A DNA stretch of 64,000 nt, from contig NZ_CM001022.1 of assembly GCF_000165795.1 (NCBI RefSeq), forward strand, positions 682,001-746,000, given 5' to 3'. The first letter of the stretch is position 1. Every line of letters starts with the position of its first letter. The stretch comes from Aminomonas paucivorans DSM 12260. Lineage in GTDB: Bacteria > Synergistota > Synergistia > Synergistales > Synergistaceae. The notes beneath the pieces are model-generated. The model saw only the letters and a list, made by a program, of their open reading frames with translations. It was not told the DNA's origin and made no database searches. Both the position numbers and the translations under genes were made by a program. Of the stretch, positions 9,493 to 25,875 are shown in pieces.

Positions 9493-11289
9493 TCAGGGAT
9501 TCCAGCGCCACCCCCGGCAGGGTTTGGCGAAGGACCGGTTGAGCCCGGAGGGGGAGAACTCCCGGCCGTAGAAACGTTCGTAGAACTCCTGGGCCTCCGA
9601 GGTCAGGTCGAAGGACGCCCGATCCGGGTGCAGGCAGTTGGCCAGGTGCAGGAGCCCCAGGATCCACCGGGGGCTGCCGAAGTCCCATCCCGGGGCGGGA
9701 TGGGGGTGCACCTGGCGCCTTCGGGTGGCCTCCACCCGAACCCCCGCCTCCTGGCAGTCCCGCAGCAGGTCCTCCCGGGAGGAGGAGATGAAGGCGGAGA
9801 CGAACAGGTGCTCCGGGTTCAGGTCGTTCAGGGTCCTGGCCTCCAGGGTGGCCCCGGGCCGTCCGTCGAAGGCCAGCCTCTTGTTGACGCTCTCTCCCCC
9901 CGCCAGCTCCACCAGGTTGTTCTCCAGCCTTTCCCCCTTCAGGGCGAAGAGGGCCTTGCCCATGGCGTAGTAGGCCCGGGGGCGTCTGGGGGCGGAGGCC
10001 ACGGCGAGGCGCACCCGGTCCATCCGGTCTTCCAGGTACGAGGCCAGTTCCCGGGCCTCCCGGGGAGCCCCCACGAGGGCTCCGAACCGGCGCACCAGCC
10101 CCGGGTAGCTCTCCGGGCGCTGGACCTCCCGGTGAAGCCGCATCAGGCCGTCTCCCGTGAGCACCTCCTCCCACGCCCGCACCACCCTGCCCCGGTCCCG
10201 CACCCCCAGGGGGATGAGGAGGGCTTCCACCATTTCCAGGGCCCGGGTGAAGGGGTATCCCCCCAGGAAGTCCCCTTCCCGGAACTCCGCCTCCCGAAAC
10301 GCCTCCCCCTTGGTGAAGGGAAGTTCCGCCCCGCACCCTCCGCAGGCCCGGGCCCCCGAAAGGGAGGGGGCGGCGTCCATCAGCCGGGCTCCCATGGGGC
10401 CGTAGAAGTCCCGGCGGTAGAGGACGCGGCCGCAGACGGGGCAGAGGGTGTGGAGGAGCGGGGTTCCGGGGGAGTTGAACAGGTACACGAAGGGAGAGTC
10501 CCGGCGCAGGGCGGCGCAGAGGGCCTCCGCCTCCCGGATGGAGGGTTCCAGGGAGGCCTCCGCGTCCTCGAAGGGGAGGAAGCGCATCACCTGCAGGGGG
10601 ATGGAGGGAGAGACCCCCCGCAGAAGCCGGGCCACCTCCTCCAGGGTCTTCTCGTCCCCCTTGCGGAAGATGCAGGAGACCTCCACGTGCACCCCTCCGG
10701 CGTGCAGCGCCCGAAGGTTCCGCAGGACCGGGGCGACGGAGCTTCCCCCGCAGGCCCGGTAGACCTCCTGGGAGAGTCCCTTGAGCCCCAGGTTGACGAA
10801 GTCCAGGTGGGGCAGGAGCGTCTCCAGGGCTTCCCGGGTGAAGGTGCCGTTGGTGGCGCAGCCCGCGGCGAGGCCCTGCCTTCGGGCCTCCTTGGCCACT
10901 TCCCGGAAGGTGAAGAAGGAGGCAAGCGGGTCGTTCATCAGGAAGGCCACCCCCGAGCAGCCCCGGTTTCGGGCCTCCCGGACCACCTCCTCCGGGGAAA
11001 GGTGCCGCAGGGCCGGGCTTGCCCCGTCCATCTCCCGGACCAGGGTGGTCGAGATGCACCCGGGGCAGCAGAGGTTGCACCCCGTGGTGCTGATCTGGAG
11101 CACCACGGCCCCGGGGCGGTAGTGCAGCAGGGGGACGGTCTCCACGGAGACCGGCGTGGCCACGAGGTAGCGGTGGGGGTAGCGCTCCTCCATGACCCCG
11201 CCCCGACGCCGATAGAGGCCGCAGGCTCCCTCGCCCCCTTCGGGGACGGCGCAGTTCCGTTCGCAGATCCCGCAGGTCGTCCCGCTCAT
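9493..11289 (-). CDS. radical SAM enzyme fused to the C-terminal lobe of a FecB/BtuF-type binding protein
   Basis: A 598-residue protein with three parts. Residues 1-270 form a PflA/AmmeMemoRadiSam-like radical SAM domain with an N-terminal cysteine motif (CGICERNC, C6-C13) and the cluster motif C71-x3-C75-x2-C78. Two CxxC pairs (C283/C286 and C316/C319) form a probable zinc ribbon. Residues 385-575 align by pattern with the second lobe of the substrate-binding protein encoded at 12469-13530 (YYA-G start, ELAGGE, LNPEHLFVSA, GWDFGSPRWILGLLHLAN, EAQEFYERFYG). No signal peptide is present, so this half-binding-protein should be cytoplasmic. It is the last gene of the chelate-transport operon, and its ATG overlaps the methyltransferase stop (ATGA). 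Function is inferred: acting on an imported metal chelate or cofactor. The fusion is unusual. Confidence 0.85.
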   Translation of the reverse strand: MSGTTCGICERNCAVPEGGEGACGLYRRRGGVMEERYPHRYLVATPVSVETVPLLHYRPGAVVLQISTTGCNLCCPGCISTTLVREMDGASPALRHLSPEEVVREARNRGCSGVAFLMNDPLASFFTFREVAKEARRQGLAAGCATNGTFTREALETLLPHLDFVNLGLKGLSQEVYRACGGSSVAPVLRNLRALHAGGVHVEVSCIFRKGDEKTLEEVARLLRGVSPSIPLQVMRFLPFEDAEASLEPSIREAEALCAALRRDSPFVYLFNSPGTPLLHTLCPVCGRVLYRRDFYGPMGARLMDAAPSLSGARACGGCGAELPFTKGEAFREAEFREGDFLGGYPFTRALEMVEALLIPLGVRDRGRVVRAWEEVLTGDGLMRLHREVQRPESYPGLVRRFGALVGAPREARELASYLEDRMDRVRLAVASAPRRPRAYYAMGKALFALKGERLENNLVELAGGESVNKRLAFDGRPGATLEARTLNDLNPEHLFVSAFISSSREDLLRDCQEAGVRVEATRRRQVHPHPAPGWDFGSPRWILGLLHLANCLHPDRASFDLTSEAQEFYERFYGREFSPSGLNRSFAKPCRGWRWNP

Positions 11290-11912
11290 GCCCCCTCCCC
11301 CTTTCGGAAGCGGATCCAGAACCCCTCGTCGTCGTTCTGGACCTCCCGATGGAGGATGCCCGCCCCGTCCAGGGCACGGAGGAACCGCTCCCGAAGGTCC
11401 TGGCTGGTGTGCTTTTCCACCATGGGGCGCCACTGGGGGTCCCGAAGCCGCATGGCTCCGGCGATCTTCTGCTTCAGCTCTCCGGTGCCGAAGCCGCCGC
11501 CGATCCAGGCGAAGCCCCCCGGGGCCAGGACCCGGAGGATCTCCCCGAAGGCCTTCTCCGGATCGTCCCAGAAGAAGAGGGACCCCCGGCTCACCGCCAG
11601 GTGGAAGGTGTCCTCCGGGAAGGGCAGGGCGTGCACGTCTCCCTCCACCGTGCGGGTGTTTGTCGCCAGGGGGCTGGCGGCCACGTTGCGCCGGGCGAGG
11701 CGCAGCATCTCCGGGTCCCGGTCCAGAAGGCAGACCTCCAGGTCCGTCAGCTGGGCCAGGGCCAGGCCCAGCAGCCCCGGTCCCGTCCCCACGTCCAGGC
11801 AGCGCCCCCGGCGGACCCCGGTGCCGCACAGGATCTGGTGGGCCACCACCGGGTAGAGGGGGGCGAAGACCTCCCGAGCGATGCGGTCGAACCCCTCCGG
11901 ATCGGTCCTCAT
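11286..11912 (-). CDS. class I SAM-dependent methyltransferase
   Basis: A 208-residue methyltransferase of the UbiE/Methyltransf_11 type. The SAM-binding loop LDVGTGPGLLGLAL spans about 39-52, the acidic end of strand 2 is LLDRD and the post-loop motif is EGDVHALPFPEDTFHLAVS. It lies inside the chelate-uptake operon, overlapping the NTPase stop (ATGA at 11909-11912) and the radical-SAM start, which implies strict translational coupling. The substrate is unknown. Given the operon, it may methylate the imported chelator or a corrinoid- or tetrapyrrole-like cofactor; this is inference only. Confidence 0.87.
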   Translation of the reverse strand: MRTDPEGFDRIAREVFAPLYPVVAHQILCGTGVRRGRCLDVGTGPGLLGLALAQLTDLEVCLLDRDPEMLRLARRNVAASPLATNTRTVEGDVHALPFPEDTFHLAVSRGSLFFWDDPEKAFGEILRVLAPGGFAWIGGGFGTGELKQKIAGAMRLRDPQWRPMVEKHTSQDLRERFLRALDGAGILHREVQNDDEGFWIRFRKGEGA

Positions 11913-12460
11913 GCGCTGGCCTCCCGGGAACCCGCCGAGGCCGCCAGGAGGGACCGCGTCGCCTCCAGGACCCGGAGGAACAGATCGTCCCGGTTTTCCC
12001 GGGTCGTCTCGAAGACCCGCACGTCCCCCCGGGCCCGGATGAGGGCGGGGAGGAGGGCCTGGGGTTTCTTCGACAGGACCCCCAGGACGGGGACGGGGGA
12101 ATCGAGGCAGGCCAGGACGCTTGCCCGAAAGGCCGGGGCGTCGTTCTCCAGAAAGCCGATCTCGTCCATCACCAGCAGCGGCGGGGCCGCAGCCAGGGCG
12201 CGGCGGCAGCAGCGCACCCCGTAGTCCTCGAAGGTGTGCAGGCAGGGGCGCGCCCCCCCCTCGGGAGTCCAGCGGGCGATCCAGGGGGTTGCGCCGTCCC
12301 CGGGAAGGGCCTCCATGCAAAACCCCCGCAGGAGCCCTCCTCCCTCGACGGGGCGGGTGCAAAACCCCCGGGGGGCCGCGCCCAGGGCCGCCACCACCCG
12401 GCCCAGGAGGGTGCTCTTGCCCACCTGGACGTCGCCGGTGAGGAACAGGTTCTTTTCCAC
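11909..12460 (-). CDS. nucleoside-triphosphatase, THEP1/NTPase_1 family
   Basis: A 183-residue P-loop protein. The Walker A sequence GDVQVGKST is at 9-17, and the Walker B-like LLVMDEIGFLE sits near the middle. Both match THEP1-type nucleoside-triphosphatases, which are related to adenylate kinase folds and have unknown cellular roles. The GTG at 12460 is preferred because AAGGAAGGAG lies about 11 bases upstream. Another GTG at 12472 would overlap the binding-protein stop but has no spacing for a ribosome site. Genes of this family sometimes lie beside metal or cofactor transport genes, as here. Confidence 0.85.
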   Translation of the reverse strand: MEKNLFLTGDVQVGKSTLLGRVVAALGAAPRGFCTRPVEGGGLLRGFCMEALPGDGATPWIARWTPEGGARPCLHTFEDYGVRCCRRALAAAPPLLVMDEIGFLENDAPAFRASVLACLDSPVPVLGVLSKKPQALLPALIRARGDVRVFETTRENRDDLFLRVLEATRSLLAASAGSREASA

Positions 12461-12468
12461 GGGAAGGC

Positions 12469-13530
12469 TCACTCCTTCCTTACGGAGTGCCGCAGGATGT
12501 CCCGGGCCTCCTCCGCCGTCAGATCGTAGCGCCAGAAGAGGCGGTAGAAGCGCTGGGCTTCCTTCACCAGGTCGTACCGAAAGACCTCCGGGTAGATCAG
12601 CGCCGCCGCCCAGCGCACTCCCAGGAGCCGGTTCACCCCCGGGGGCCGGTCGAACCAGCAGAAGGGGTTGTCGGGCACCGCGTAGACCCTTCGATTCGCC
12701 ACCGCCCGCAGGGTCTTCCAGTTCGGGTCCGAGAGGATCCCGTCGTAGGCCCCTCCCCGGGAGGTTCCCCAGGCCAGGATCAGGTCCGGATCCCACAGGT
12801 GGATCTGTTCCAGGGAGGCTGCGGACATGCCGTTGAGCCCTCCCTGGGGCACCTCCGCCACGTTGGTCGCCCCCACCAGGTCCAGGATCTGGCTGTGCCG
12901 GGAGCCCGAAGGCTCGGTCTGCAGCCCCTTGGGTCCCTCGGCGTAGTAGACCCGGACCCGCTTTTCCCGGGGGATCCCGCGGGCCTTGTCGGCCACGTCC
13001 CGCAGGGTCTCCCGGCAGTAGGCCCCCAGCGCCTCCGCCCGCTTCGTCTCCCCCAGGAGCTTTCCCAGGAAGGCGTAGGTCCGGTCCAGCCGGGTCAGCT
13101 CGTAGTCCAGCACCACCACGGGGATGCCCGCCTGCTCCTGAAGCCGATCCGCCAGGGAGCGGGTGGAGGCGTCCAGGGGGCCCATGTGGAGGAACAGGTC
13201 CGGCCGGTGTTTCAGGATCTCCTCCACGTTGCCCTTCTGGGTGGAGAACCACCCCCCCAGCACGGGAAGCTCCGCGTAGGCCCGGGGAAGGAAGCGCTTC
13301 TCCTCCGGACGCAGGGGGAAGTTCCAGCCCAGCAGCCGGTCCGGGGCCAGGGTGTAGAGAATGGTGGCGGCGATGGGGTTGACGCAGAAGACCCGGGAGA
13401 CCTTCGCGGGCAGGGCGACCGTCCTTCCCGCCATGTCCGTCACGTTCCGTCCTCCCGCCTGAGCCGCCGCAACCCACAAAACCACCGCTCCCAGGGCCAG
13501 TGCCGCCGTCCGCAACCTTCGGTTCCTCAT
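12469..13530 (-). CDS. ABC transporter substrate-binding protein, iron-siderophore/cobalamin type
   Basis: A 353-residue secreted protein with a signal peptide at 1-25 ending AAQA-GG and a TroA-superfamily fold (PF01497 type). The first lobe begins VTDMAGRTVALPAKVSRV, the family's usual start; the second lobe has SAASLEQIHLWDPDLILAW and a tail EAQRFYRLFWRYD. It should deliver a chelated metal (ferric siderophore, corrinoid or similar) to the FecCD-like permease encoded upstream. No lipobox is seen, so it is probably a free periplasmic protein. It lies 30 bases after the ATPase gene. Confidence 0.9.
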   Translation of the reverse strand: MRNRRLRTAALALGAVVLWVAAAQAGGRNVTDMAGRTVALPAKVSRVFCVNPIAATILYTLAPDRLLGWNFPLRPEEKRFLPRAYAELPVLGGWFSTQKGNVEEILKHRPDLFLHMGPLDASTRSLADRLQEQAGIPVVVLDYELTRLDRTYAFLGKLLGETKRAEALGAYCRETLRDVADKARGIPREKRVRVYYAEGPKGLQTEPSGSRHSQILDLVGATNVAEVPQGGLNGMSAASLEQIHLWDPDLILAWGTSRGGAYDGILSDPNWKTLRAVANRRVYAVPDNPFCWFDRPPGVNRLLGVRWAAALIYPEVFRYDLVKEAQRFYRLFWRYDLTAEEARDILRHSVRKE

Positions 13531-13560: not shown

Positions 13561-14340
13561 TCACCCTTGACGGGGCACGCAGACCCTTCTGTCTCCGTGT
13601 TTCCCTCCGAGGCGGACGATGTCCACCTCCACCCCGTAGAGGGTCTTCAGGTTTCGGGGAGTGAGGACCTCCTCCGGCGGGCCCGGGCTCAGGTGCCCTC
13701 CCCCGTGGAACCCCAGGACCTGATGGGCGCACAGAAAGGCGTGTTCCGGGAAATGGGTGGACACCAGGACCCCCATGCCCCTCCGTCCCATCTGTTCGAT
13801 GCGCCGCAGCACCAGAAGCTGTTTGCCGAAGTCCAGGCTGGTGGTGGGCTCGTCCAGGACGAGGAACCGGGGTTCCTGCGCCAGCGCCCGGGCCAACAGG
13901 ACCAGCTGCCGCTCTCCTCCGCTGAGTTCCGTCACCGGGCGTTCTCCCAGGTGGCGCGCCCCCACCGCCTCCAGTGCCTCCTCCGCCAGCCTCCGGTCCT
14001 TCCCGGAGGGGGACGCGAAGAGCCCCAGCCGACAGGTGCGCCCCATGAGGACCACGTCCCGCGCCCGGAAGGAGAAGAGGGGTTCCCGGGCCTGGGGGAC
14101 GTAACCCAGGGCCTGCGCCCTTCGGGCCGCGGGCCAGGGGAGGAGGTCCTCCCCGTCCAGGAGGATGCTCCCTCCCAGGGAGGGCAGCAGTCCCAGGATC
14201 GTCTTGAAGAAGGTGGTCTTCCCCGCCCCGTTGGGACCCAGAAGGCAGAGGACCCGCCCCTCCTCCAGGGTCAGGGACACGTCCCGGACCACCTCCCTCC
14301 CCCGGTAGCCGCAGGAAAGCCCCCGCACCTCCAGGGCCAT
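13561..14340 (-). CDS. ABC transporter ATP-binding protein, FecE/BtuD type
   Basis: A 259-residue ATPase. Walker A is GPNGAGKTT at about 35-43, the signature is LSGGERQLVLLARAL, and Walker B is FLVLDEPTTSLD followed by the switch histidine in STHFPEH. It should drive the neighbouring FecCD-type permease. Its ATG overlaps the permease stop as TGATG. It is similar to the second ATPase at 22987-23796, including the shared IPQ/VPQ and RTPHLG/RTCRLG segments, so the two transporters look like paralogues. Confidence 0.92.
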   Translation of the reverse strand: MALEVRGLSCGYRGREVVRDVSLTLEEGRVLCLLGPNGAGKTTFFKTILGLLPSLGGSILLDGEDLLPWPAARRAQALGYVPQAREPLFSFRARDVVLMGRTCRLGLFASPSGKDRRLAEEALEAVGARHLGERPVTELSGGERQLVLLARALAQEPRFLVLDEPTTSLDFGKQLLVLRRIEQMGRRGMGVLVSTHFPEHAFLCAHQVLGFHGGGHLSPGPPEEVLTPRNLKTLYGVEVDIVRLGGKHGDRRVCVPRQG

Positions 14341-15473
14341 CAGAAGGCGGCTCCCTTTCGGGTGGCCAGCCACAGGAAGAAGGGGACCCCCACCAGGGCC
14401 GTCAGGATGCCCAGGGGAATTTCCACCGCCGCCAGGATTCGCGCCAGGTCGTCCACCAGCAGGAGGAAGACCCCTCCTCCCAGGACGGAGGCGGGCAGAA
14501 GGGCCTTGAAGTCCGACCCCACCGCCATCCGGCAGAGGTGGGGCACCACCAGACCCACCCAGCCGATCATGCCGCACACGGAGATGGCTGCGGCGGTGGC
14601 CAGGGTGGTGCAGAGGATCACCAGCCACCGGAAGCCCCGGACGTTCAGCCCCAGAGCCCGGGCCTCCTCCTCCCCCAGGGAGAGCACGTTGAGGCGCCAG
14701 CGCACCAGGACCAGGGGAGCGATGCCCAGGACCACGGGAGGGAGAAGGAACAGCAGGTCTCGGGGCGCCACGGAGGACAGGCTGCCCATAAGCCAGAAGG
14801 TGATGGCCGGGAGCTTGTCGGAGGGGTCCGCCACGTACTTCACCAGGGAGGTGGCCGCGGTGAAGAGGGACCCGGTCATCACCCCCGCCAGCACCAGCCC
14901 CAGCAGGGGGTTGTGGCGCATCCGGGCCCCCAGGGCGCAGGCCAGCAGGACCGCCCCCAAACCCCAGAGGAAGGCCAGGGCCTGGATTGCCGGAAAGGGC
15001 AGGGAGAGGCAGATCCCCAGGGCCGCCCCGAACCCCGATCCTGCCACCGCTCCCAGGAGTCCCGGAGAGGCCAGGGGGTTGCGGAAGAGCCCCTGGAGGG
15101 CCGCTCCGGAGGCCCCCAGGGAGGCTCCCACCAGCAGCGCCGCCAGGATCCGGGGCAGACGGATGCGGAAGAGAACCGTATCCAGGGCCGAGGGGACCGA
15201 GGCGTCGCTGGCGTTCAGGGCGGTTTCCAAGGCATGGAGGAGCTGCCCCGGGGAGATGGGGTAGCGTCCCACGGCGAAGGAGAGGAGCAGGGCTCCCAGG
15301 GGCAGGGCCCCCCAGAGGAGAAGAGGGCGCAGGAAGGTCTGTTTCCCGAGGGGAAGGGCATCCGGCGCGGGGAGGGAAGGATCGGCTCCGAGGGGAAAGG
15401 GGAACGGGGCCGCCCCCTCGGGGGGAAGGTCCTGGGGCGTTTTCGTCCTGACGCGGGAAGTTTCCAACCCCAT
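14340..15473 (-). CDS. ABC transporter permease, FecCD/BtuC family
   Basis: A 377-residue membrane protein. An unusually long N-terminal extension of about 55 residues, rich in proline, precedes the first helix. About ten hydrophobic helices follow, with the family motifs LRLPRILAALLVGASLGASG and LSGAALQGLFRNPLASP-like text, the cytoplasmic loop to the ATPase (SLGEEEARALGL) and the end IPLGILTALVGVPFFLWL. It forms the translocation channel for the metal chelate. The ATG at 15473 is preceded by AGGAGG. It is the first gene of the eight-gene minus-strand operon; a hairpin and two operator-like palindromes lie in its leader. Confidence 0.9.
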   Translation of the reverse strand: MGLETSRVRTKTPQDLPPEGAAPFPFPLGADPSLPAPDALPLGKQTFLRPLLLWGALPLGALLLSFAVGRYPISPGQLLHALETALNASDASVPSALDTVLFRIRLPRILAALLVGASLGASGAALQGLFRNPLASPGLLGAVAGSGFGAALGICLSLPFPAIQALAFLWGLGAVLLACALGARMRHNPLLGLVLAGVMTGSLFTAATSLVKYVADPSDKLPAITFWLMGSLSSVAPRDLLFLLPPVVLGIAPLVLVRWRLNVLSLGEEEARALGLNVRGFRWLVILCTTLATAAAISVCGMIGWVGLVVPHLCRMAVGSDFKALLPASVLGGGVFLLLVDDLARILAAVEIPLGILTALVGVPFFLWLATRKGAAF

Positions 15474-15708: not shown

Positions 15709-16533
15709 ATGGAGCGGTGCGAGGATCGGGCGGGAACGAGACTCCCGTCGGAACGGGTCCCCGGTCCCGGGGGGCTTTCGGGGCTTCTGCTGCCCGGGGT
15801 GATCGGGCTCCTCTGGTGGGGGGCCTCCCGCCTGGGGCTCTGGAACCCCTACCTGCTCCCCTCCCCGGAACAGGTCTTCTCCTCCCTGGGTTCCCTGGCC
15901 GCGTCGGGGGAGCTGGCCCGGCACGTGGGGGCCAGTGCGGGGCGCATCGCCGCGGGGTTCGGCCTCTCCTCCCTGGTGGCCCTGCCCCTGGGGGTGCTCT
16001 TGGGACTGCGCCCCCGCCTGGGTCGCCTGGCCTACCCCACCCTGGAGTTTCTGCGTCACGTCCCGCCCCTGGCGGTGCTTCCCCTGCTGATCCTGTGGTT
16101 CGGCATCGGGGAGGGCTCCAAGATGGCGGTGATCCTCCTGGCCACCTTCTTTCCCGTGTTCCTCAACACCCTGGAGGGGGTGCGGCGCTGCGACCCCGGG
16201 CTCCTGGAGGTGGGGCGCACCCTGGGTCTCTCGGAGGGGGAGGGGGTGCGGCGCATCGTGCTGCCCGCTGCCCTGCCCTCCATCCTCACGGGGCTGCGCC
16301 TGGGGCTGGGCTACAGCTGGCGCTCCCTCATCGGGGCGGAACTCATCGCCGCCGCCTCGGGACTGGGCTACCTGATCCACGACGCGGAGGCCCTTTCCCG
16401 GCCCGACGTGATCGTGGCGGGGGTGCTGGTGCTGGGGGTCATCGGGGCCGCTACGGACCACCTCTTCTTCCGCCTTGCCGCCCGGGTCACCCCCTGGCGC
16501 CCCCGGGGGGATGCTCGGGATGGATGGGATTAG
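15709..16533 (+). CDS. ABC transporter permease, SsuC/TauC (nitrate/sulfonate) type
   Basis: A 274-residue inner-membrane protein with six or so hydrophobic helices. The binding-protein-dependent transport motif (EVGRTLGLSEGEGVRRIVLP, about 168-187) has the EAA-type loop that contacts the ATPase. The family imports sulfonates, nitrate, bicarbonate, thiamine precursors or similar small anions; the substrate here is not determined. The ATG has GGAGGAGGAAGGG just upstream. It diverges from the chelate-transport operon and begins a three-gene operon. Confidence 0.88.
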   Translation: MERCEDRAGTRLPSERVPGPGGLSGLLLPGVIGLLWWGASRLGLWNPYLLPSPEQVFSSLGSLAASGELARHVGASAGRIAAGFGLSSLVALPLGVLLGLRPRLGRLAYPTLEFLRHVPPLAVLPLLILWFGIGEGSKMAVILLATFFPVFLNTLEGVRRCDPGLLEVGRTLGLSEGEGVRRIVLPAALPSILTGLRLGLGYSWRSLIGAELIAAASGLGYLIHDAEALSRPDVIVAGVLVLGVIGAATDHLFFRLAARVTPWRPRGDARDGWD

Positions 16534-17302
16534 GCTGGAGGGGGTGCGCCGGGTCTTCCCCCTGGAGGGGGGAGAGGTCCGGGCCTTGGAGGATCTGTCC
16601 CTGCGGGTCCCCTGGGGGTCCCTCACGGCGGTGGTGGGGCGAAGCGGCTGCGGCAAGACCACCCTGCTGCGCCTGGTGGCGGGGCTGAACGAGCCCACGG
16701 CGGGGCGGGTCCGCTTCCTGCAGGGCAGTGAGGACCTCCCCCGGGAGGCGGTACGGGTGGGGCTGGTGTTCCAGGAACCCCGACTCATGCCCTGGCTTTC
16801 CGTGGAGGAGAACCTGGCTTTCCCTCTGGTGGGGCGCCTGGGAAGGGAGGAGATCCGCCGTCGGGTGGACCCCCTCCTGGAACTGCTGGGACTGGAGGGA
16901 TTCCGCCGGGCCCTGCCGGGGCAGATCTCCGGGGGCATGGCCCAGCGGGTGGCCCTGGGGCGTACCCTGGCCCACGACCCGGACGTGGTGCTTCTGGACG
17001 AGCCCTTCGGCTCCCTGGACTACTTCACCCGCCGGGCCCTGCAGGGGGAGATCGGAGAGCTGCACCGGCGCACCGGGAAGACCTTCCTCCTGGTGACCCA
17101 CGACGTGGACGAGGCCCTGGCCCTGGGGGATTCGGTGGTGGTGCTCCGGCAGGGGCGGTTGGCGGACCGGGTGGAGGTTCCCTTCCCCCGGCCCAGGGAC
17201 GTGGATGACCCGGTCTTCGCCCCCCTGAAGCGCTCCGTTCTCGGAGCCATCGGGGGCACGGCGGAGGACCCGGGAAGGACGAAGGAGGTCGAGGCATCTT
17301 GA
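16520..17302 (+). CDS. ABC transporter ATP-binding protein, SsuB/TauB type
   Basis: A 260-residue ATPase with Walker A GRSGCGKTT (about 41-49), signature ISGGMAQRVALGRTL, Walker B VVLLDEPFGSLD and the switch histidine in VTHDVDEAL. It belongs to the nitrate/sulfonate/taurine family and energises the permease before it. The start at 16520 overlaps the permease end by 14 bases and has a G-run 8 bases upstream; an ATG at 16511 is the alternative. The stop overlaps the next gene's TTG. Confidence 0.9.
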   Translation: MDGIRLEGVRRVFPLEGGEVRALEDLSLRVPWGSLTAVVGRSGCGKTTLLRLVAGLNEPTAGRVRFLQGSEDLPREAVRVGLVFQEPRLMPWLSVEENLAFPLVGRLGREEIRRRVDPLLELLGLEGFRRALPGQISGGMAQRVALGRTLAHDPDVVLLDEPFGSLDYFTRRALQGEIGELHRRTGKTFLLVTHDVDEALALGDSVVVLRQGRLADRVEVPFPRPRDVDDPVFAPLKRSVLGAIGGTAEDPGRTKEVEAS

Positions 17303-18231
17303 AACGGTTTTTGTGGGTCCTGTTGGCGGCGGCGGTCTTGGCGGCGGGGACGGCCTGGGCAGGTCCCCAAGACTTGGCGGTGACCTACGTGAAGGCTCCC
17401 CTGAACGTGCCCTCCATCCTGGAGAAGCGGCTGGGGCTCTTCGACAAGGCCTTCGCCCCCCAAGGGATCGCCGTGACCTACCCGGAGCTTCTGGCGGGAC
17501 CCCAGCAGACCCAGGCCCTGGCGGCGGGGTCCGTGCAGGTGGCCCACTGTCTGGGGGGCACCTCCGCTCTGCTGGCGGCGGCGGGAGGCGTGGATCTGAA
17601 GATCGTGGGGATCTACAGCCGGGCGCCTCGGGCCTTCGTGATCCTGGTGAAGGACCCGGCGATCCGCACCGTGGCGGACCTGAAGGGGCGCAAGGTGGCG
17701 GGCCCCAAGGGGACGGTGCTCCACCAGCTCCTGGTGGCGGCGGTGAAGAAGGCGGGGCTGGCCCCCTCGGACGTGCCCCTTCTGGGCATGGGGCTGCCCG
17801 AAGGGGTGGCGGCGCTCCTCTCCGGCGGCGCGGATGCCGCCCTGGCGGCGGGACCGGCGGTGCCCAAGGCGCTGGAGCAGGGGGCCCGGGTGCTGGTGGA
17901 CGGGAAGGGACTGGTGGACGCCACCACGGTCATCGCTATGGCGGGGTCCTTCCTGGCGGAGCATCCGGAACGGGCGCGGCTCTTCCTCAAGACCCACCGG
18001 GCCGCCCTGGCCCGCATGAAGGCCAAGCCCGAGGAGGCGCTGAACCTCACGGCCCAGGAGACGGGGCTGACGCCGGAGGCGGTGAAGGCCATGCTGCCCC
18101 TCTACGACTTCGACCCCACCCTCCGTCCCTCGGACCTGGCGGAGCTGGAGCGCACCCAGGACTTCCTGATGGAAAACGGCATGATGCAGCGCAAGGTGGA
18201 CCTGAAAGGCCTGGTGCGGACGAGCCTGTAG
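17299..18231 (+). CDS. ABC transporter substrate-binding protein, NMT1/SsuA-like
   Basis: A 310-residue secreted protein beginning with a TTG. AAGGAGGT lies 9 bases upstream and the TTG overlaps the ATPase stop. A signal peptide at 1-22 ends TAWA-GPQ. The mature part follows the SsuA/NMT1 pattern: a YVKAPLNVPSILEKRLG opening, a GSVQVAHCLGG ligand loop and KGRKVAGPKGTVLHQLL. It captures the substrate for the SsuBC-like transporter. The ligand is unknown; the family includes aliphatic sulfonate, taurine, nitrate and pyrimidine-precursor binders. A terminator follows directly. Confidence 0.88.
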   Translation: MKRFLWVLLAAAVLAAGTAWAGPQDLAVTYVKAPLNVPSILEKRLGLFDKAFAPQGIAVTYPELLAGPQQTQALAAGSVQVAHCLGGTSALLAAAGGVDLKIVGIYSRAPRAFVILVKDPAIRTVADLKGRKVAGPKGTVLHQLLVAAVKKAGLAPSDVPLLGMGLPEGVAALLSGGADAALAAGPAVPKALEQGARVLVDGKGLVDATTVIAMAGSFLAEHPERARLFLKTHRAALARMKAKPEEALNLTAQETGLTPEAVKAMLPLYDFDPTLRPSDLAELERTQDFLMENGMMQRKVDLKGLVRTSL

Positions 18232-19220: not shown

Positions 19221-19895
19221 ATGTTCGTGGAGATTCGTTGGGATCCTGCATGGGGAACCCTGGCGGCGGGCTGGATGCTCCTGAACGGGGGGAGCAACCC
19301 TCCCGTCTCGGAGGCTCTGGAAGCGGAGTGCCGCCGGGGGGAGGAGGAACTTCGGGGAAAGCACGGAGGGGCGGACCGGGGAGCCCTGAAGGAGCTGCCG
19401 GTCTACCGGGACTACGAAGCCTATTACCGGCGCTTCGGCAAGTCCTACCACGTGAGGTTGCAGCTGGAGTCGATCCTGAAGGGCAAGAAGGTGCCCCCCG
19501 TGTCGGCCCTGGTGACGCCCCTGTTTCTGGCGGAGCTGGAGACGGGGGTGCTCTCTGCGGGTTACGATCCTCTGCGGCTTGCCTTCCCCCTGGAGGCCCG
19601 CCCGGGAAGGGAAGGGGAGACCTACCAGCTGTTGGGCAAGGGACGGGATCAGACCGTCGTCCCCGGGGACCTGACCCTGGCGGACCAGAGGGGAGTGGTG
19701 GGGACCATCCTCCACGGACCGGACCAGAGAACCTGCCTGGACGGGGAGAGCCGGGCGGCGCTGTACGTGGTCTATCCGGTGCCGGGTCTGCGGGCGGAGA
19801 CGGTGCACCGCCATCTGGACCGGGTGCGGGATCTGGTGCGGCTGGCCCTGCCCGGGGCCGCGGAGGAGGGACGGGAGGTGCTGGAGGGGGCATGA
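19221..19895 (+). CDS. B3/B4 tRNA-binding-domain protein
   Basis: A 224-residue stand-alone protein resembling the B3/B4 editing region of the phenylalanyl-tRNA synthetase beta chain (YRRFGKSYHVRLQLESI, VSALVTPLFLAELETGVL and the later VVYPVPGLRAETVHRHL). Free-standing members are thought to act in trans on mischarged tRNA or amino acids, but this is not proven. Start sites are ATG 19221 or GTG 19227, both within reach of AAGGAGG. It diverges from the AraC gene, which may control it. Confidence 0.8.
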   Translation: MFVEIRWDPAWGTLAAGWMLLNGGSNPPVSEALEAECRRGEEELRGKHGGADRGALKELPVYRDYEAYYRRFGKSYHVRLQLESILKGKKVPPVSALVTPLFLAELETGVLSAGYDPLRLAFPLEARPGREGETYQLLGKGRDQTVVPGDLTLADQRGVVGTILHGPDQRTCLDGESRAALYVVYPVPGLRAETVHRHLDRVRDLVRLALPGAAEEGREVLEGA

Positions 19896-19958: not shown

Positions 19959-20663
19959 ATGGCGGATGGGCGGATCGAAGCGCTTCGGGGGTGGATCCGG
20001 CGGGGTCTGAAGGCCCCCCACGAGTCGGTGAGGTTAGGGGTGCTCCTGGCCCTGGTGGGAGGGTTCCTGGACGCCTACACCTTCCTGGGCTGGGACGGGG
20101 TCTTTGCCAATGCCCAGACGGGGAACCTGGTGCTCATCGGCATCGCCGCCTCCCTGGGGGATTTCCGGCAGATGGGGACCTATCTCCCTCCCATTCTGGC
20201 CTTTGTGGCGGGGGTGTTCGTCGTGGAGGCGGCCAAGTCCTCCTCCCTGTCCGCCCGGCTGGACTGGGGGCGCTTCGCCCTGACTCTGGAGATCCTGACC
20301 CTCACCGTCGTGGGGTTCGCCCCCCGGGGGACCCCACCCCTGTTCGTCAACGCCGCCGTGTCCTTTGTGGCCTCCGTGCAGGTCTGCGCCTTCCGCCGTC
20401 TGGTGGATGCCCCCTACAGCACCACCATGATGACGGGAAACCTGCGGTCCGCCTCTCAGGCCCTCTGGGTCGCCTTGGCCCGAAGGGATCCGGGGGAGCG
20501 GGAGAAGGTGGGGCGCTACCTCACGGTCATCGGCTTCTTCACCCTGGGGGCGCTGATCGGGGGTGTCCTGACCTCCCTGGGGGGAACCCGATCTGTCTGG
20601 GGGGCGGCGGGGCTCCTGGCGGCGGCCCTGAGCCTGTATGTCCGGGAGGGGGCGCCGGACTAG
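19959..20663 (+). CDS. DUF1275 (YoaK-type) membrane protein
   Basis: A 234-residue protein with about six hydrophobic helices. The family hallmark GGFLDAYTFLGWDGVFANAQ (about 34-53) is followed by TGNLVLIGIA, and the second repeat of that pattern appears as STTMMTGNLRSA. The function of DUF1275 is unknown. The gene is 63 bases after the B3/B4 gene. Its stop codon shares CTAG with the stop of the convergent hydE gene, so no terminator separates the two. Confidence 0.87.
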   Translation: MADGRIEALRGWIRRGLKAPHESVRLGVLLALVGGFLDAYTFLGWDGVFANAQTGNLVLIGIAASLGDFRQMGTYLPPILAFVAGVFVVEAAKSSSLSARLDWGRFALTLEILTLTVVGFAPRGTPPLFVNAAVSFVASVQVCAFRRLVDAPYSTTMMTGNLRSASQALWVALARRDPGEREKVGRYLTVIGFFTLGALIGGVLTSLGGTRSVWGAAGLLAAALSLYVREGAPD

Positions 20664-21688
20664 AGGGTCGGTTCGCGGGAGACTTGATCCCGCAGGAAGG
20701 CCAGGGAATCTCCCCGTTCCAGGAGTCCCTTGCGGCCCAGGGAGTGGAGGTGGGCCAGCAGTTCTTCCAGGTCCTCCGCTCCGTCCCGCACCAGGGCCAC
20801 CTTCCCGGGGTAGAGGGTGTAGTGTTCCCGCGCCCCCGGGGGGGTGAGGTTGGGCATGAGCACGTTGGCCCCCGCCGCCAGCATGGCCTCCCGGCCCCCC
20901 GCGTCCCGGGACCCCGCGGCGGTGGTGGCGGGGATGTTGGCCTCGGGAAGGAGCAGTCGCAGCAGTGCCACCAGCCGTACCGTATCTTCCATGGAGCCCG
21001 GCTGGGCCCCCGCCAGGGGGGTGTCCGGATGGGGGAGGAAGGGGCCGATACCCACCATGTGCAGCTTCAGGGAGGCGCAGAGGCGCAGGTTCTCCCGCCT
21101 CGTTTCCTCCGTCTCCCCCGGGAGGCCCACCAGAAAGCCCGACCCCACCTCGAAGCCCCCGTCCCGCAGGTCCTGCAGGGCCTCCAGCCTTCGGGCCAGG
21201 GTCTGCCCGGGCTTGAGGCGGGAGAAGAGTTCCGGGTCGGAGGTCTCGAAGCGCAGCAGATAGCGGTTCGCCCCCGCCTCCGCCAGGCGACGGTAGTCCT
21301 CCCGGCTCTTGATGCCGCAGCTCAGGGTCAGGGCTCCTTGGTCCCCCAGAATGATCCTCAGCCGCTCCGCCAAGCGGCAGAGGCGGTCCGTGGTCCAGTC
21401 CGGGTCCTCGCCCCCCTGAAGGACGAAGGTCCGAAAGCCTCGATCCCAACCCCGCCGCACCGTGGCCTCGATCTGGTCCTCCGTCAGGGAGTAGCGCACC
21501 GCCCGGCCGTTGCCCCCCCGGATGCCGCAGTAGGCGCATCCCTGGGTGCAGCGGTTGGTGAACTCCAGCAGCCCCCTCAGCCACACTCCGTCCCCCACCC
21601 GCCGGCGTCGCACCTCGTCGGCCCGGGCGATCAGCTCCGGCAGGGGCAGGGCCCAGAGGGTCTCCAGGTCAGGCGGAGACGGGTTCAT
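20660..21688 (-). CDS. hydE: [FeFe]-hydrogenase maturation radical SAM protein HydE
   Basis: A 342-residue radical SAM protein of the BioB/ThiH/HydE group. The cluster motif is C47-x3-C51-x2-C54 (CTQGCAYC), and the EFTNRC and LQGGED segments are typical of HydE. It helps build the diiron subcluster of [FeFe]-hydrogenase with HydF and HydG; neither HydG nor a hydrogenase lies in this window. Its start lies 20 bases inside the end of hydF, so the two are co-translated. Confidence 0.93.
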   Translation of the reverse strand: MNPSPPDLETLWALPLPELIARADEVRRRRVGDGVWLRGLLEFTNRCTQGCAYCGIRGGNGRAVRYSLTEDQIEATVRRGWDRGFRTFVLQGGEDPDWTTDRLCRLAERLRIILGDQGALTLSCGIKSREDYRRLAEAGANRYLLRFETSDPELFSRLKPGQTLARRLEALQDLRDGGFEVGSGFLVGLPGETEETRRENLRLCASLKLHMVGIGPFLPHPDTPLAGAQPGSMEDTVRLVALLRLLLPEANIPATTAAGSRDAGGREAMLAAGANVLMPNLTPPGAREHYTLYPGKVALVRDGAEDLEELLAHLHSLGRKGLLERGDSLAFLRDQVSREPTL

Positions 21689-22913
21689 GGCTGCGCCGGA
21701 AGCTGTGGTACAGGGCGTGTTCCACCGGGAAGGGCTCCAGCGCCCGGGGCAGGAGCCCCTTGGCCCAGGCCAGGAAGAGGCCGTAGTTGGTCCCCGGCAC
21801 GTCCGCCTCCCGGAGGAGGGCGATGCGGCGCAGCATGTCGTTGCGGGTGGTCATGCAGCCCGCGCAGTTGATGACGTAGTGGTAGTTTCGCAGCTCCTCC
21901 GGGGAGGGCACGTCCTGGCGCAGCTCGAAGGCGGCCCCGGCCCGCACCAGGCGGCGGAAGAGGTTGGGGATCTTCACCGTGCCGATGTCGTCGTCCATGC
22001 GGTGGTGCTTGCACGATTCCAGCACCAGGACCCGGGGGGATTCGGGCAGCTCCTCCAGCCGCTGGATCCCCTCCACGAAGAAGGCCAGGTCCCCCTTCTT
22101 CCGGGCGAAGAGGATGGAGAAGGACGTGAGAAGCTGGTCCGGCGGCAGGATCTCCCGGACCTCGCTGAAGGCCTGGCTGTCCGTCACCGCCAGGGCGGGG
22201 CGGACCCCCAGGGAGGCGTAGCACGCTCCCAGCTGGTGCTCCTTGGCGATGGCCATGAAGCAGTCCTGGTCCAGGATATCCCGGATCACCTCCACCTGGG
22301 GAAGGATCATCCGGGCCTTGGGGGCGGAGGAGTCGATGGGGGTGATCAGGAGCACCAGGTCGCCCGCCTGCACCAGCCCCTCCAGGGGGGTGATCTCCCG
22401 CTCCACCTGGTCGGAGAACTGGCGCAGGGCGGCGTTCAGGTCCTCGATGCCCCGGCCCGTGAGGTTGTCCACGGCGATCTTGCGGAAACCCGGGGCGAAG
22501 CGCCGCTTGGCCTCGGCGATCTCCCGGTCCGACCGGGTGAGCACCACCAGCACCGGCTTGTCCCGGCGGTGCAGCTCCTCCGTCAGGGCGATCTCGTCGG
22601 AGGTGGGTTCCTCGTCCCCGGGGGTGACGAAGAGCACGATGTCCGCCGTCTCCAGCCTCTTTCGGGACCGCTCCGTCCGCAGGGTTCCCAGCTCGTCCTC
22701 GTCGTCGTCGTACCCCGCCGTGTCCGTCACCGCCACCGGGCCCAGGGCCCCCATCTCCACGCTGCGCACCACCGGGTCCGTGGTGGTGCCGGGGCGGGGC
22801 GAGACGATGGACGCCTCCATGCCCAGCATCCGGTTCACCAGGGAGGATTTCCCCGCGTTGCGCCGCCCGTAGACCACCACGCTGATCTGTTCCGCCAGGG
22901 GAGTTCGGAGCAT
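21669..22913 (-). CDS. hydF: [FeFe]-hydrogenase H-cluster maturation GTPase HydF
   Basis: A 414-residue scaffold GTPase. The G1 loop GRRNAGKS is at 16-23 and G3 DTAG at 64-67. The C-terminal cluster ligands C301-x-H303 and C350-x2-C353 match the HydF pattern CxH(x46)CxxC exactly. It carries the diiron precursor and loads it into the hydrogenase. ATG 22913 has GAGG 7 bases upstream; the in-frame extension to 22967 overlaps the promoter hairpin and is unlikely. It precedes hydE. Confidence 0.94.
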   Translation of the reverse strand: MLRTPLAEQISVVVYGRRNAGKSSLVNRMLGMEASIVSPRPGTTTDPVVRSVEMGALGPVAVTDTAGYDDDEDELGTLRTERSRKRLETADIVLFVTPGDEEPTSDEIALTEELHRRDKPVLVVLTRSDREIAEAKRRFAPGFRKIAVDNLTGRGIEDLNAALRQFSDQVEREITPLEGLVQAGDLVLLITPIDSSAPKARMILPQVEVIRDILDQDCFMAIAKEHQLGACYASLGVRPALAVTDSQAFSEVREILPPDQLLTSFSILFARKKGDLAFFVEGIQRLEELPESPRVLVLESCKHHRMDDDIGTVKIPNLFRRLVRAGAAFELRQDVPSPEELRNYHYVINCAGCMTTRNDMLRRIALLREADVPGTNYGLFLAWAKGLLPRALEPFPVEHALYHSFRRSHEPVSA

Positions 22914-22936
22914 GGATGCGCCTCGTTTCTTTGAAA

Positions 22937-22990
22937 GGGTTTTGGGTTGGATGCCCAAACCCATCATATCGTTTGTTCCTGGGAGGTCAA
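22937..22990 (-). promoter_or_regulatory. hydFE promoter and leader hairpin
   Basis: On the minus strand, TTGACC (22990-22985), a 16-base spacer and TATGAT (22968-22963). The -35 overlaps the stop codon of the upstream ABC ATPase gene. A stem-loop (22937-22946 with 22954-22962, one bulged base) follows immediately. hydFE can therefore be expressed separately from the chelate transporter, and the hairpin may also partly end the upstream transcript. Confidence 0.5.
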
Positions 22991-23796
22991 TGCCGAGGGC
23001 GGGGCTTCGTCAGGGTTTCCTCCGGCAGGGGCACGCAGGTTCGCATGTCCGGGTTTTCCGGTACTTCCAGAACCCGCACCGCCACACCGTAGGCCTCCCG
23101 GATGAGGGATTCGGTGACCACCTCCGAGGGGGTCCCGCAGCGAAGGAAGCGACCGTCCTTGAGGATCGCCGCGGTGCTGGCGGAGGAGAGGGCATGGTCC
23201 GGAACGTGGGAGGTCAGGAGTACCGAAAGACCTTCCCGGGCCAGGGTCCCGAGGGTGCGAAGGAACCGGGTCTGGTTGCCGAAGTCCAGGTGTGCCGTGG
23301 GTTCGTCCAGCAGGAGGAGTTCCGCCTGCTGGGCCAATACCGAAGCCAGCAGCACCAGCTGTCTCTCCCCTCCGCTGATGTCCGTATAGGGGCGGTCCCG
23401 CAGGGGGAGTACCCCCAGGCGGTCCAGGGCTTCCTCCGCCAGGTGTTGGTCCCGCTTTCCGGGGGAGCCGAAGATCCCCAGATGGGGCGTCCTGCCCAGA
23501 AGAGCCACCTCCAGCGCCGTGAAGGGGAAGACGGGGACATGGTTCTGGGGGATGAAGGCCACTCGGCGCGCGATCTCCCGACGTCCCCAGCGGGAGAGGT
23601 CCTGACCGTCCAGGAGGATTTTCCCGGAGGCGAGGGGCAGCAACCCGTCCAGACACTGGAGGAGGGTGGATTTCCCCGTGCCGTTGGGGCCCAAAAGGCA
23701 GAACACTTCGTTGGGTGTCATGTCGAAGCTCAGTCCCCGGAACACCTCCCGCGATCCGGGGTAGGCGAAGGTGGCGTCCCGAACCTGAAGCTTCAT
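22987..23796 (-). CDS. ABC transporter ATP-binding protein, FecE/BtuD type (second locus)
   Basis: A 269-residue ATPase with Walker A GPNGTGKST (about 36-44), signature ISGGERQLVLLASVL, Walker B LLLLDEPTAHLDF and a switch histidine in TSHVPDHAL. It is a paralogue of the ATPase at 13561-14340. It energises the FecCD-like permease whose stop overlaps its start (ATGA). The likely substrate class is an iron-siderophore, haem or corrinoid chelate. Confidence 0.92.
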   Translation of the reverse strand: MKLQVRDATFAYPGSREVFRGLSFDMTPNEVFCLLGPNGTGKSTLLQCLDGLLPLASGKILLDGQDLSRWGRREIARRVAFIPQNHVPVFPFTALEVALLGRTPHLGIFGSPGKRDQHLAEEALDRLGVLPLRDRPYTDISGGERQLVLLASVLAQQAELLLLDEPTAHLDFGNQTRFLRTLGTLAREGLSVLLTSHVPDHALSSASTAAILKDGRFLRCGTPSEVVTESLIREAYGVAVRVLEVPENPDMRTCVPLPEETLTKPRPRH

Positions 23797-24806
23797 CGCC
23801 AGGCCACCCGGTTGCGGCTCAGAAGCCAGGCGAAGAAGGGCGCCCCGATCAGGGCCGTGAGGATTCCCAGGGGGATTTCCGACGCCGAGAGGGTCCGGGA
23901 GAGGGTGTCCACCAGGAGAAGGTAGAAAGAGCCCAGGGAGATGCTTGCGGGGAGGAGGCGGCGGATGTCCGGTCCCACCAGGAGGCGGCCGATGTGGGGG
24001 ATGACCAGCCCCACCCACCCGATCACCCCGGCAAGGCATACGGCGGAAGATGTGAGAAGGGTACAGGCCAGGATGACCAGCCACCTCTCCCGGACCACCT
24101 CCGCCCCCAACGCTTGAGCCTCCTGCTCTCCGAAGGCCAGGAGGTTCAGTCGCCAGCGCAGGGCCAGCAGAACCCCCAGTCCGACCGCCATCATGGGAGC
24201 GACCGCCAGGAGGTTTGTGAGGGAGACCCGGGCGAGGGACCCCATGAGCCAGAACACCATGGCGGGGAGCTTCTCGTAGGGGTCCGCCTGGAACTTCAGC
24301 AGGGAGATCAGGGCGGAGAAGAAGGACCCCACGATGATGCCCCCCAGGACGAGCACCAGGGTGGAGGCTTTGCGGTAGATCCCGCTGAGACCGGTGGCAC
24401 CCAGCACCGCCACCATGCCGAAGAGGGTCGCGGAAAGCTGCACGATCCATCGGGTCTCGGTGAAGAGAATGGCGAGGCAGGCTCCGAACCCCGATCCGGC
24501 GGCGACACCCAAGACGTAGGGAGATACCAGGGGGTTGCGGAACAGTCCCTGGAAAGCGCAGCCCGAAGAGGACAGGGCGGCTCCTACCATCATGGCTCCC
24601 AGGGCCCGAGGCAGACGCAGGTTCCAGAGGACCGTCTCCATGGTGTCGGGCCAATGGGGCGTCAGAGGGAAGAACTTTGCCGCCAGGATCTTCAGCACCG
24701 TCGGCAGAGGGATGGGGTAGCGTCCGAGGGTGAAGGAAAGGAGGAACAGAGTCAGGGGCAGGAGCGGTAGGAGAAGCGCCGCCCTCGCCCCTTGGGGTTT
24801 AATCAT
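23793..24806 (-). CDS. ABC transporter permease, FecCD/BtuC family (second locus)
   Basis: A 337-residue membrane protein with about ten hydrophobic helices and the family landmarks LRLPRALGAMMVGAALSSSG, FQGLFRNPLVSPYVLG and a C-terminal IPLGILTALIGAPFFAWLL. It starts directly with its first helix, unlike the paralogue at 14340-15473, which carries a long N-terminal extension. It overlaps the binding-protein gene by 8 bases, so the three genes form one coupled operon. Confidence 0.92.
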   Translation of the reverse strand: MIKPQGARAALLLPLLPLTLFLLSFTLGRYPIPLPTVLKILAAKFFPLTPHWPDTMETVLWNLRLPRALGAMMVGAALSSSGCAFQGLFRNPLVSPYVLGVAAGSGFGACLAILFTETRWIVQLSATLFGMVAVLGATGLSGIYRKASTLVLVLGGIIVGSFFSALISLLKFQADPYEKLPAMVFWLMGSLARVSLTNLLAVAPMMAVGLGVLLALRWRLNLLAFGEQEAQALGAEVVRERWLVILACTLLTSSAVCLAGVIGWVGLVIPHIGRLLVGPDIRRLLPASISLGSFYLLLVDTLSRTLSASEIPLGILTALIGAPFFAWLLSRNRVAWR

Positions 24807-25875
24807 CCCCCGGATAGGGTATTCCGTAGAAACGGGTGTAGAACTCGTTCACCACGGGTTGGATGTCGATGTCCGCGAAACGGGCGGGATAGAGTTTCTT
24901 CGCCATCCACAGCTCTCCCAGGGCCATGGACTCCGGGCAGGGGTGTCCCCAGGGTTTCACGTACTCCGGGGTGAGGTAGACCCGCCGATCTCGGACCGCC
25001 CGAACCTTGCCCCATGTGGGGTCCTTGCGGATGTGCTCCGCTACCTTGGCGTACCGGTCCTGCACGAAGATCACCTGGGGATTCCAGAGCAGGATCTGCT
25101 CCATGGTGACCTGGGCATAGCCGTTGATGCCCTCCGCCACGTTCATGCCCCCGGCTCGGTCCATGATGACCCCCGTGTACTTGCCTGTGCCGTAGGTGTA
25201 CAGGTCCGGGTTGGCCATGTAGCAGGTGGTGCGGTCGCCTCGGGGGATGCCGGCGGTTCTTGCCCGGGCCAGGTTCCGCCATTTGAAGGTGAAGTCCAGG
25301 AGTGCCTTGGCCCGGGGCTGCACCCCCAGGACCTCTCCCAGAAGAGTGATCCCTTCCCTCATGCCCTCCGTATAGGCCTGGTCGGGGTTCTTCAGTTTCG
25401 GGTTGAGGCGGGAAGCCTCCTCGTACCGGGCCTTGTAGAGCGCCAAGGCCAGCACCGGAACCCCCGCGTCCTCCATCTGCTGGATCATGTCCTTCGGGGC
25501 GTAGTGGGTCACGATGACCAGGTCCGGTTTGAGGCGCAGAAGCTCCTCCATGTTCACCTCGTTGAGACCGCCGGGGGTGGGGAGCTTTTTCAGAGCCGGA
25601 CAGATCTTCGTGATCCCCGCGGGCAGATCCTTCTGCCAGGTTCGGGTGATCCCCACCAGCCGGTCCGCCGCCCCCAGCTCGATCAGGATGTCCACTCCGT
25701 GGTGCATGAGGCACACCACCCGGTCCACCTTCACCGGTACCGCCACCACCCGGCCCAGCTGGTCCACCACCATGCGCTTCTCCGCCCCGAAGGAGGGCAG
25801 GGGCAGGGCGAGACACCCCGCGAGCAGGATTCCCAGAAACCACAGGCCGCTGTGCTTGAGCAGTCGATCCTTCAT
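24799..25875 (-). CDS. ABC transporter substrate-binding protein, iron-siderophore/cobalamin type (second locus)
   Basis: A 358-residue exported protein. The leader has a possible lipobox LLAGC at about 18-22 and also a possible signal-peptidase I site after PSFGA. The mature part is a TroA-superfamily fold starting VVDQLGRVVAVPVKVDRVV and ending EFYTRFYGIPY. The ATG at 25875 lies 8 bases after CGGGGAG; a GTG at 25881 is too close to it. It is the first gene of the second chelate-uptake operon and is preceded by a good promoter, an operator-like site and a leader hairpin. Confidence 0.9.
   Translation of the reverse strand: MKDRLLKHSGLWFLGILLAGCLALPLPSFGAEKRMVVDQLGRVVAVPVKVDRVVCLMHHGVDILIELGAADRLVGITRTWQKDLPAGITKICPALKKLPTPGGLNEVNMEELLRLKPDLVIVTHYAPKDMIQQMEDAGVPVLALALYKARYEEASRLNPKLKNPDQAYTEGMREGITLLGEVLGVQPRAKALLDFTFKWRNLARARTAGIPRGDRTTCYMANPDLYTYGTGKYTGVIMDRAGGMNVAEGINGYAQVTMEQILLWNPQVIFVQDRYAKVAEHIRKDPTWGKVRAVRDRRVYLTPEYVKPWGHPCPESMALGELWMAKKLYPARFADIDIQPVVNEFYTRFYGIPYPGDD

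Follow-up and report, generated by a model that had tools for sequence, protein, structure and literature searches.

The open reading frame at positions 9493-11289 on the reverse strand of the window (by which is meant the whole 64,000-nucleotide stretch of Aminomonas paucivorans DNA that was analysed) encodes a protein that the combined evidence supports as a cytoplasmic radical SAM enzyme whose C-terminal end is built like a binding protein of the FecB/BtuF type, with the second lobe and the linker helix present. The frame is unbroken over its 598 codons, and coordinates, strand and frame are exact. Such a composition had been proposed in a first-pass annotation made from the letters of the DNA alone, and it is borne out by sequence, profile and structure comparisons. 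The parts of the chimera are known, and it is their order that appears to be new: family databases hold no such unit, and no description of a fusion with this domain order was found in the open-access literature, in keeping with the annotation's remark that no described enzyme of this design was known to it. The features of the gene are as follows, with the basis of each assignment in brackets.

9493-11289, reverse strand: whole gene of the radical SAM / half binding-protein chimera, 598 residues, ATG start
11221-11274, reverse strand: N-terminal Cys motif, residues 6, 9, 13 and 23, common to AmmeMemoRadiSam enzymes (alignment)
10480-11190, reverse strand: radical SAM barrel, residues 34-270, PFL-AE-like (Pfam, 2.9e-18; VIA, Z 17.6 to 3c8f)
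11056-11079, reverse strand: CX3CX2C [4Fe-4S]/SAM motif, C71/C75/C78, intact (alignment)
10333-10443, reverse strand: zinc-ribbon-like segment, C283/C286 and C316/C319, part of the AmmeMemoRadiSam-like enzyme (alignment)
10075-10257, reverse strand: helical stub replacing the first lobe, residues 345-405 (AF2; VIA alignments from residue 350)
10000-10065, reverse strand: backbone (linker) helix, residues 409-430 (hhalign, AF2)
9535-9987, reverse strand: lobe 2, of class III binding-protein type, residues 435-585 (Pfam, phmmer, BLASTP, hhalign, VIA, Foldseek)
9496-9534, reverse strand: C-terminal tail, residues 586-598, reading NRSFAKPxRxWxW in both fused copies and absent from binding proteins

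As regards the catalytic half, the Pfam Radical_SAM match covers residues 67-222 (E 2.9e-18), and the barrel (residues 34-270) superposes on the PFL activating enzyme 3c8f over 222 aligned residues with a VIA Z score of 17.6 and an rmsd of 3.0; the barrel type is thus that of the glycyl radical enzyme activases, and neither the operon nor the genes that follow directly on it include one for a glycyl radical enzyme. The nearest NCBIfam model is TIGR04337 (AmmeMemoRadiSam system radical SAM enzyme), against which the chimera scores 114.1 bits, short of the NCBI cut-off of 220 bits; judged by its sequence, this half is a relative of that family and not a member. No HemN-type match was found in Pfam or NCBIfam, the matches being to AmmeMemoRadiSam and activase families. 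In an alignment with 20 AmmeMemoRadiSam enzymes (AmrS) of the phylum, the N-terminal CX2CX3C...C, the CX3CX2C and the C-terminal ribbon of the latter are present in the chimera, which shares the PFL-AE-like barrel with them too, whereas two barrel motifs differ, reading GCIS (directly behind the cluster motif) and MNDP in both fused copies (see below) as against FCQN and YNEP in AmmeMemoRadiSam enzymes. The chimera further differs from them in its extra C-terminal part of about 260 residues, and neither an AMMECR1 nor a Memo gene is found among the other five products of the operon. The annotation had taken the pair of CxxC motifs to join the two parts of the protein, but the same CxxC...CxxC ribbon is common to AmmeMemoRadiSam enzymes, so that C283/C286 and C316/C319 belong to the radical SAM part and came with the enzyme; the idea of a zinc ribbon as a special linker between the halves can therefore be set aside.

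The C-terminal half is matched by the Pfam family Peripla_BP_2 at residues 395-511 with an E-value of 9.6e-4, below the curated cut-off, for which reason a routine annotation would recognise the radical SAM half alone. The resemblance is nevertheless well outside what chance would produce. Using phmmer against the PDB, this half matches 4hn9 (E 2.5e-10) and 4pag (E 4.8e-8), and BLASTP against the operon's own binding protein gives E 6e-9. Comparison with PF01497-type proteins, as the annotation had proposed, is equally clear, since hhalign of the two fused copies against 34 Synergistota binding proteins gives 99.7% over residues 375-589. AF2 models the whole protein with a mean pLDDT of 85.7 and a pTM of 0.87 (45-row alignment), and residues 330-598 alone with a pLDDT of 85.0 and a pTM of 0.86, so that the prediction is a confident one for either half. 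The binding-protein rows of the alignment do, however, help to steer AF2 to that fold, and model and sequence match are therefore not independent lines of evidence. The C-part so predicted superposes on 4hn9 with a VIA Z score of 20.9 (rmsd 2.8, 217 residues), and scores of 18.8, 18.6, 18.0 and 15.4 are obtained with YiuA, CeuE, MolA (3psa) and BtuF respectively; Foldseek E-values against class III binding proteins lie near 1e-10, and HutB too is among the structural matches. An unrelated fold for residues 385-575, which the annotation had named as the outcome that would tell against it, is not what is predicted: the modelled C-part has the class III fold (VIA Z 19-21). What is shared with the class III proteins (cluster A-II, PF01497) 4hn9, 4pag, YiuA, CeuE, MolA (HI1472) and BtuF is the backbone helix and the second lobe, at Z scores of 15-21. 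Where the chimera departs from them is in having no signal peptide, a first lobe reduced to helices, and a radical SAM enzyme fused in front. The first of these differences, also claimed beforehand, holds on inspection by eye: the N-terminus of the chimera, MSGTTCGICERNC, has no apparent signal peptide, whereas that of the operon's binding protein, MRNRRLRTAALALGAVVLWVAAAQA, is recognisable as one.

The first lobe needs more careful wording. The annotation had called it unrecognisable, and by sequence that stands: although phmmer matches to 4pag and to the binding protein of the related operon in genome G024 extend to residues 327-330, 149 of 400 shuffled sequences score as high, so that a remnant of lobe 1 cannot be claimed on this basis. 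By predicted structure it stands only in part, as AF2 places four helices at residues 345-405, with no lobe-1 sheet or strands, and in the VIA alignments, which begin at residue 350, these helices coincide with part of lobe 1 of the binding proteins. Taken together, these results imply that the second lobe and backbone helix have been kept, while the first alpha/beta lobe is either absent or reduced to a helical stub.

Among 188 Synergistota genomes a full-length relative occurs in only one other, G024 (MAG contig JAHDQY010000019), where it is 56% identical and lies in the same operon; this was the outcome of the search, suggested by the annotation, for further proteins with the same domain order. 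No fused relative was found among plasmids and viral contigs, and a scan of genome contigs with two short peptide patterns found the G024 MAG alone, but the search outside the phylum was shallow and rarity is accordingly stated for Synergistota only. In two sister genomes of the same genus, G021 and G022, the importer, NTPase and methyltransferase genes of the operon (listed below) are kept, while the gene for the chimera has suffered an internal deletion of more than 1 kb, the remaining copies (L038:10216-10665 in G021; L039:9886-10335 in G022) being left with some 110 codons of the N-terminal end and, with a stop, some 70 of the C-terminal end. A suggestion by the gene caller that the NTPase had also decayed in G021 and G022 did not hold up, PF03266 finding an open frame there. 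The deleted copies are the one point that might lend colour to the idea that the chimera is an artefact, in which faulty sequencing or assembly has run two genes together, or else a decaying fusion. This is, in our view, so improbable as to be negligible: a second, independent genome has the same continuous fusion (56% identity), in which barrel and lobe are conserved to an equal degree (57% and 59% identity), and the existence of this second intact copy excludes an artefact for practical purposes.

Comparison of the two copies is informative also at the level of individual residues. Segments 441-470 and 525-550, which to judge from the general fold would be the loops that face the ligand in binding proteins, are 73% and 69% identical respectively, making these predicted ligand-side loops the best-conserved part of the C-terminal half. 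Of the columns invariant in 29 binding-protein rows, G464, P492, A521 and P531 are kept in the fused copies, N467 is replaced by Ser in both, and E485, likewise invariant in the binding proteins, is Arg in the window's copy and Glu in that of G024. The position of E485 is one that we take to be, in BtuF, the site where binding proteins contact their permease; if so, an Arg there would suit a cytoplasmic protein, although the G024 copy keeps the Glu. In a tree of lobes a long stem leads to the fused pair, which is most simply read as one old fusion; since no sister group of the pair has support, neither the operon's own binding protein nor the DUF364-linked one (see below) can be named as that parent. 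The N467S and E485R changes imply that the lobe may have lost binding of the importer's ligand, and one could go further and suppose that, its first-lobe sheet gone, these two invariant columns altered and its branch in the tree long, it binds no ligand at all and acts as a scaffold, through which the protein would dimerise or attach to the transporter, the methyltransferase or the NTPase. This we think unlikely, as it sits poorly with the predicted ligand-side loops being precisely what is most conserved between the two copies.

The genes with which the chimera is encoded are the following, in order of transcription and as identified using Pfam; the chimera comes last.

14340-15473, reverse strand: FecCD-type permease, start codon uncertain
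13561-14340, reverse strand: ABC ATPase (FecE type)
12469-13530, reverse strand: class III binding protein of the FecB type, signal peptide present; stop overlaps NTPase start
11909-12472, reverse strand: THEP1-like NTPase (PF03266); stop overlaps methyltransferase start
11286-11912, reverse strand: SAM-dependent methyltransferase; stop overlaps radical SAM gene start (ATGA)

From the binding protein through to the radical SAM gene, each stop overlaps the next start, the overlaps being GTGA, ATGA and ATGA. The binding protein, placed four genes upstream of the chimera in the annotation, is in fact three upstream, with the methyltransferase and NTPase between. In G024 the NTPase and methyltransferase are themselves fused into one protein of 403 residues (L040:5591-6802). 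Divergent from the operon, on the forward strand at 15709-18231, lie NMT1-like ABC transporter genes, and a relative of their binding protein (38% identity) occurs about 6 kb from the FecBCD-NTPase operon of genome G125; a frame of 206 residues at 19275-19895 (forward strand) has no Pfam or NCBIfam match. The window also holds a second FecBCD-type importer, at 20660-25875 on the reverse strand if the genes that follow it are counted (binding protein 24799-25875, permease 23793-24806, ATPase 22987-23796), with HydF (21669-22913) and HydE (20660-21688) directly downstream on the same strand, which suggests a metal importer tied to [FeFe]-hydrogenase maturation.

The nature of the compound that is imported has to be approached through related operons. 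No molybdenum gene adjoins the operon in the window, and a tungstate-type importer lies 33 kb off. The genes that border the G024 operon (L040) encode DUF364, MoeA and another binding protein, and DUF364 is next door in G024, G021 and G022 alike. NTPase loci were inspected in other genera as well, all of them being without the methyltransferase/radical SAM pair. In G125 (L088:9550-10629) the last gene of a FecBCD operon joins a THEP1-like NTPase to a MobA-like nucleotidyltransferase, and an XDH-type molybdenum hydroxylase is encoded next to it; in G036 (L087) a MobA-like protein adjoins; in G045 (L090:7955-8975) a THEP1-like NTPase adjoins a ModE molybdate-regulator domain, with no importer in the stretch seen; in G155 (L085) YqeB, YedF and SelD follow within 6 kb of the NTPase locus; and in G042 (L091) a tungstate-type importer, DUF364, a molybdopterin aldehyde oxidoreductase and TrsS lie around it. 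Beside one related operon (L084; G110) no molybdenum-related genes were seen. The closest relatives of the importer on Rhizobium plasmids (42% identity) have genes for Glp/MoeA and a molybdopterin-binding protein in their vicinity, and relatives in Azospirillum lie beside MsrPQ, MsrP being a molybdenum enzyme. An observation of a different kind is a frame of 875 residues in G021 (L038:15988-18615) that combines a HisC-like aminotransferase, a GNAT-like part, half of an XDH molybdenum subunit and a [2Fe-2S] part, and looks like the product of deletions. Elsewhere in the window's own genome (at about 494-499 kb; L100:8404-13230) there is another FecBCD operon, with an O-methyltransferase and DUF364; of all proteins of this genome, it is the binding protein of that operon that the fused lobe matches best.

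In the paper describing the DUF364 structure, the context of this family is given as tungstate, molybdate and vanadium (PMC2954201). The DUF364-FecBCD loci considered there (Dhaf4260, PMC2954201) resemble the window's operon in combining heavy-metal ABC importers with accessory enzymes, although DUF364 itself is not a radical SAM enzyme and lies outside the window's operon. MolABC shows that molybdate and tungstate are within the ligand range of class III proteins (PMC4031551); MolA (3psa) matches the C-half of the chimera at Z 18.0, but many other class III proteins do likewise. Overall, the link between the related importer-NTPase operons and molybdenum/tungsten cofactor metabolism is suggestive, and the molybdenum genes near these operons favour a Mo/W-related chelate over an iron siderophore or B12. 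It might nevertheless be that importer and enzyme handle a corrinoid, a heme or a siderophore and have no connection with molybdenum, which would differ from the explanation preferred here in the ligand only. Ligands of this kind are indeed the usual ones for class III proteins, the structural matches include YiuA, CeuE, BtuF and HutB, and the second importer of the window stands beside HydF and HydE; with so many molybdenum genes around the related operons, we consider this rather doubtful.

The arrangement as a whole suggests an importer-coupled enzyme working on an imported metal compound. In the explanation that we prefer, which we would put a little short of an even chance, a degraded class III module recognises an imported Mo- or W-related compound and the radical SAM part acts on it. 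The FecBCD-type ABC importer would bring in the metal compound, most likely a Mo- or W-related oxyanion or chelate; the retained second lobe would then bind it in the cytoplasm and expose it to attack by the 5'-deoxyadenosyl radical; and the enzyme half, together with the methyltransferase and NTPase, might alter the ligand such that the metal is freed or passed to cofactor assembly. That the lobe may recognise a chelate on behalf of the radical SAM part, much as the annotation had supposed, fits both the overlapping operon and the conserved ligand-side loops. A more specific version, in which the radical SAM barrel takes the place of the first lobe, the imported compound is lodged between the barrel opening and lobe 2, and one half of a transporter's binding cleft thus now makes up one half of an active site, strikes us as improbable. 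Besides the changes at N467 and E485 and the lack of molybdenum genes beside the window's operon and beside L084, two further findings count against the preferred explanation: class III proteins bind their ligands between two lobes, of which the chimera retains one, and the radical SAM gene is evidently dispensable, having been deleted in two sister genomes that keep the importer, NTPase and methyltransferase.

There is also the case to consider in which the lobe binds a metal or chelate for the sake of sensing or delivery, and the radical SAM part, instead of acting on the chelate, serves to mature or activate another protein, for instance by inserting a metal cofactor into a molybdenum hydroxylase. 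Here one can point to PFL-AE and NifB as the closest radical SAM folds, to the links of related operons with molybdenum enzymes, and to a weak match (E 4.5e-5) to the tungsten cofactor oxidoreductase maturase model TIGR04317, which however falls far under the 380-bit cut-off of that model. Since moreover no gene for a glycyl-radical or molybdenum enzyme lies next to the chimera in the window, this seems to us rather unlikely.

For direct action on an imported chelate, as in the preferred explanation, the nearest precedent is HmuW. The gene for this radical SAM enzyme accompanies that of a heme importer, and the enzyme opens heme anaerobically, fed by a cytosolic heme carrier (PMC10404700). Like the chimera, the HmuW/ChuW/HutW anaerobilin synthases are encoded with a class III-type importer, and they act on the imported chelate without oxygen (PMC10404700). 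They belong, however, to another radical SAM family (HemN-type class C radical SAM methyltransferases) and have no binding-protein lobe, heme being delivered by separate proteins such as HmuF; where HmuW uses a separate cytosolic carrier, the chimera would have the ligand-carrier function built into the enzyme. In Btr (YbbB) of Bacillus subtilis, an AraC regulator, an imported chelate is recognised inside the cell by a class III binding domain. Btr has this domain in common with the chimera, but is a transcription regulator and not an enzyme.

How anaerobes free or process metals that are imported as chelates, and how imported molybdenum or tungsten reaches the cofactor machinery, are both poorly known. 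The NTPase-MobA fusion of G125 may, for its part, help to give a role to the little-understood THEP1-like NTPase family. If the preferred explanation is true, the compound that the importer binds should also be the one on which the enzyme acts, and the chimera would represent an unusual course of enzyme evolution, in which a binding protein, minus one of its lobes, became the substrate-recognition domain of an unrelated catalyst.
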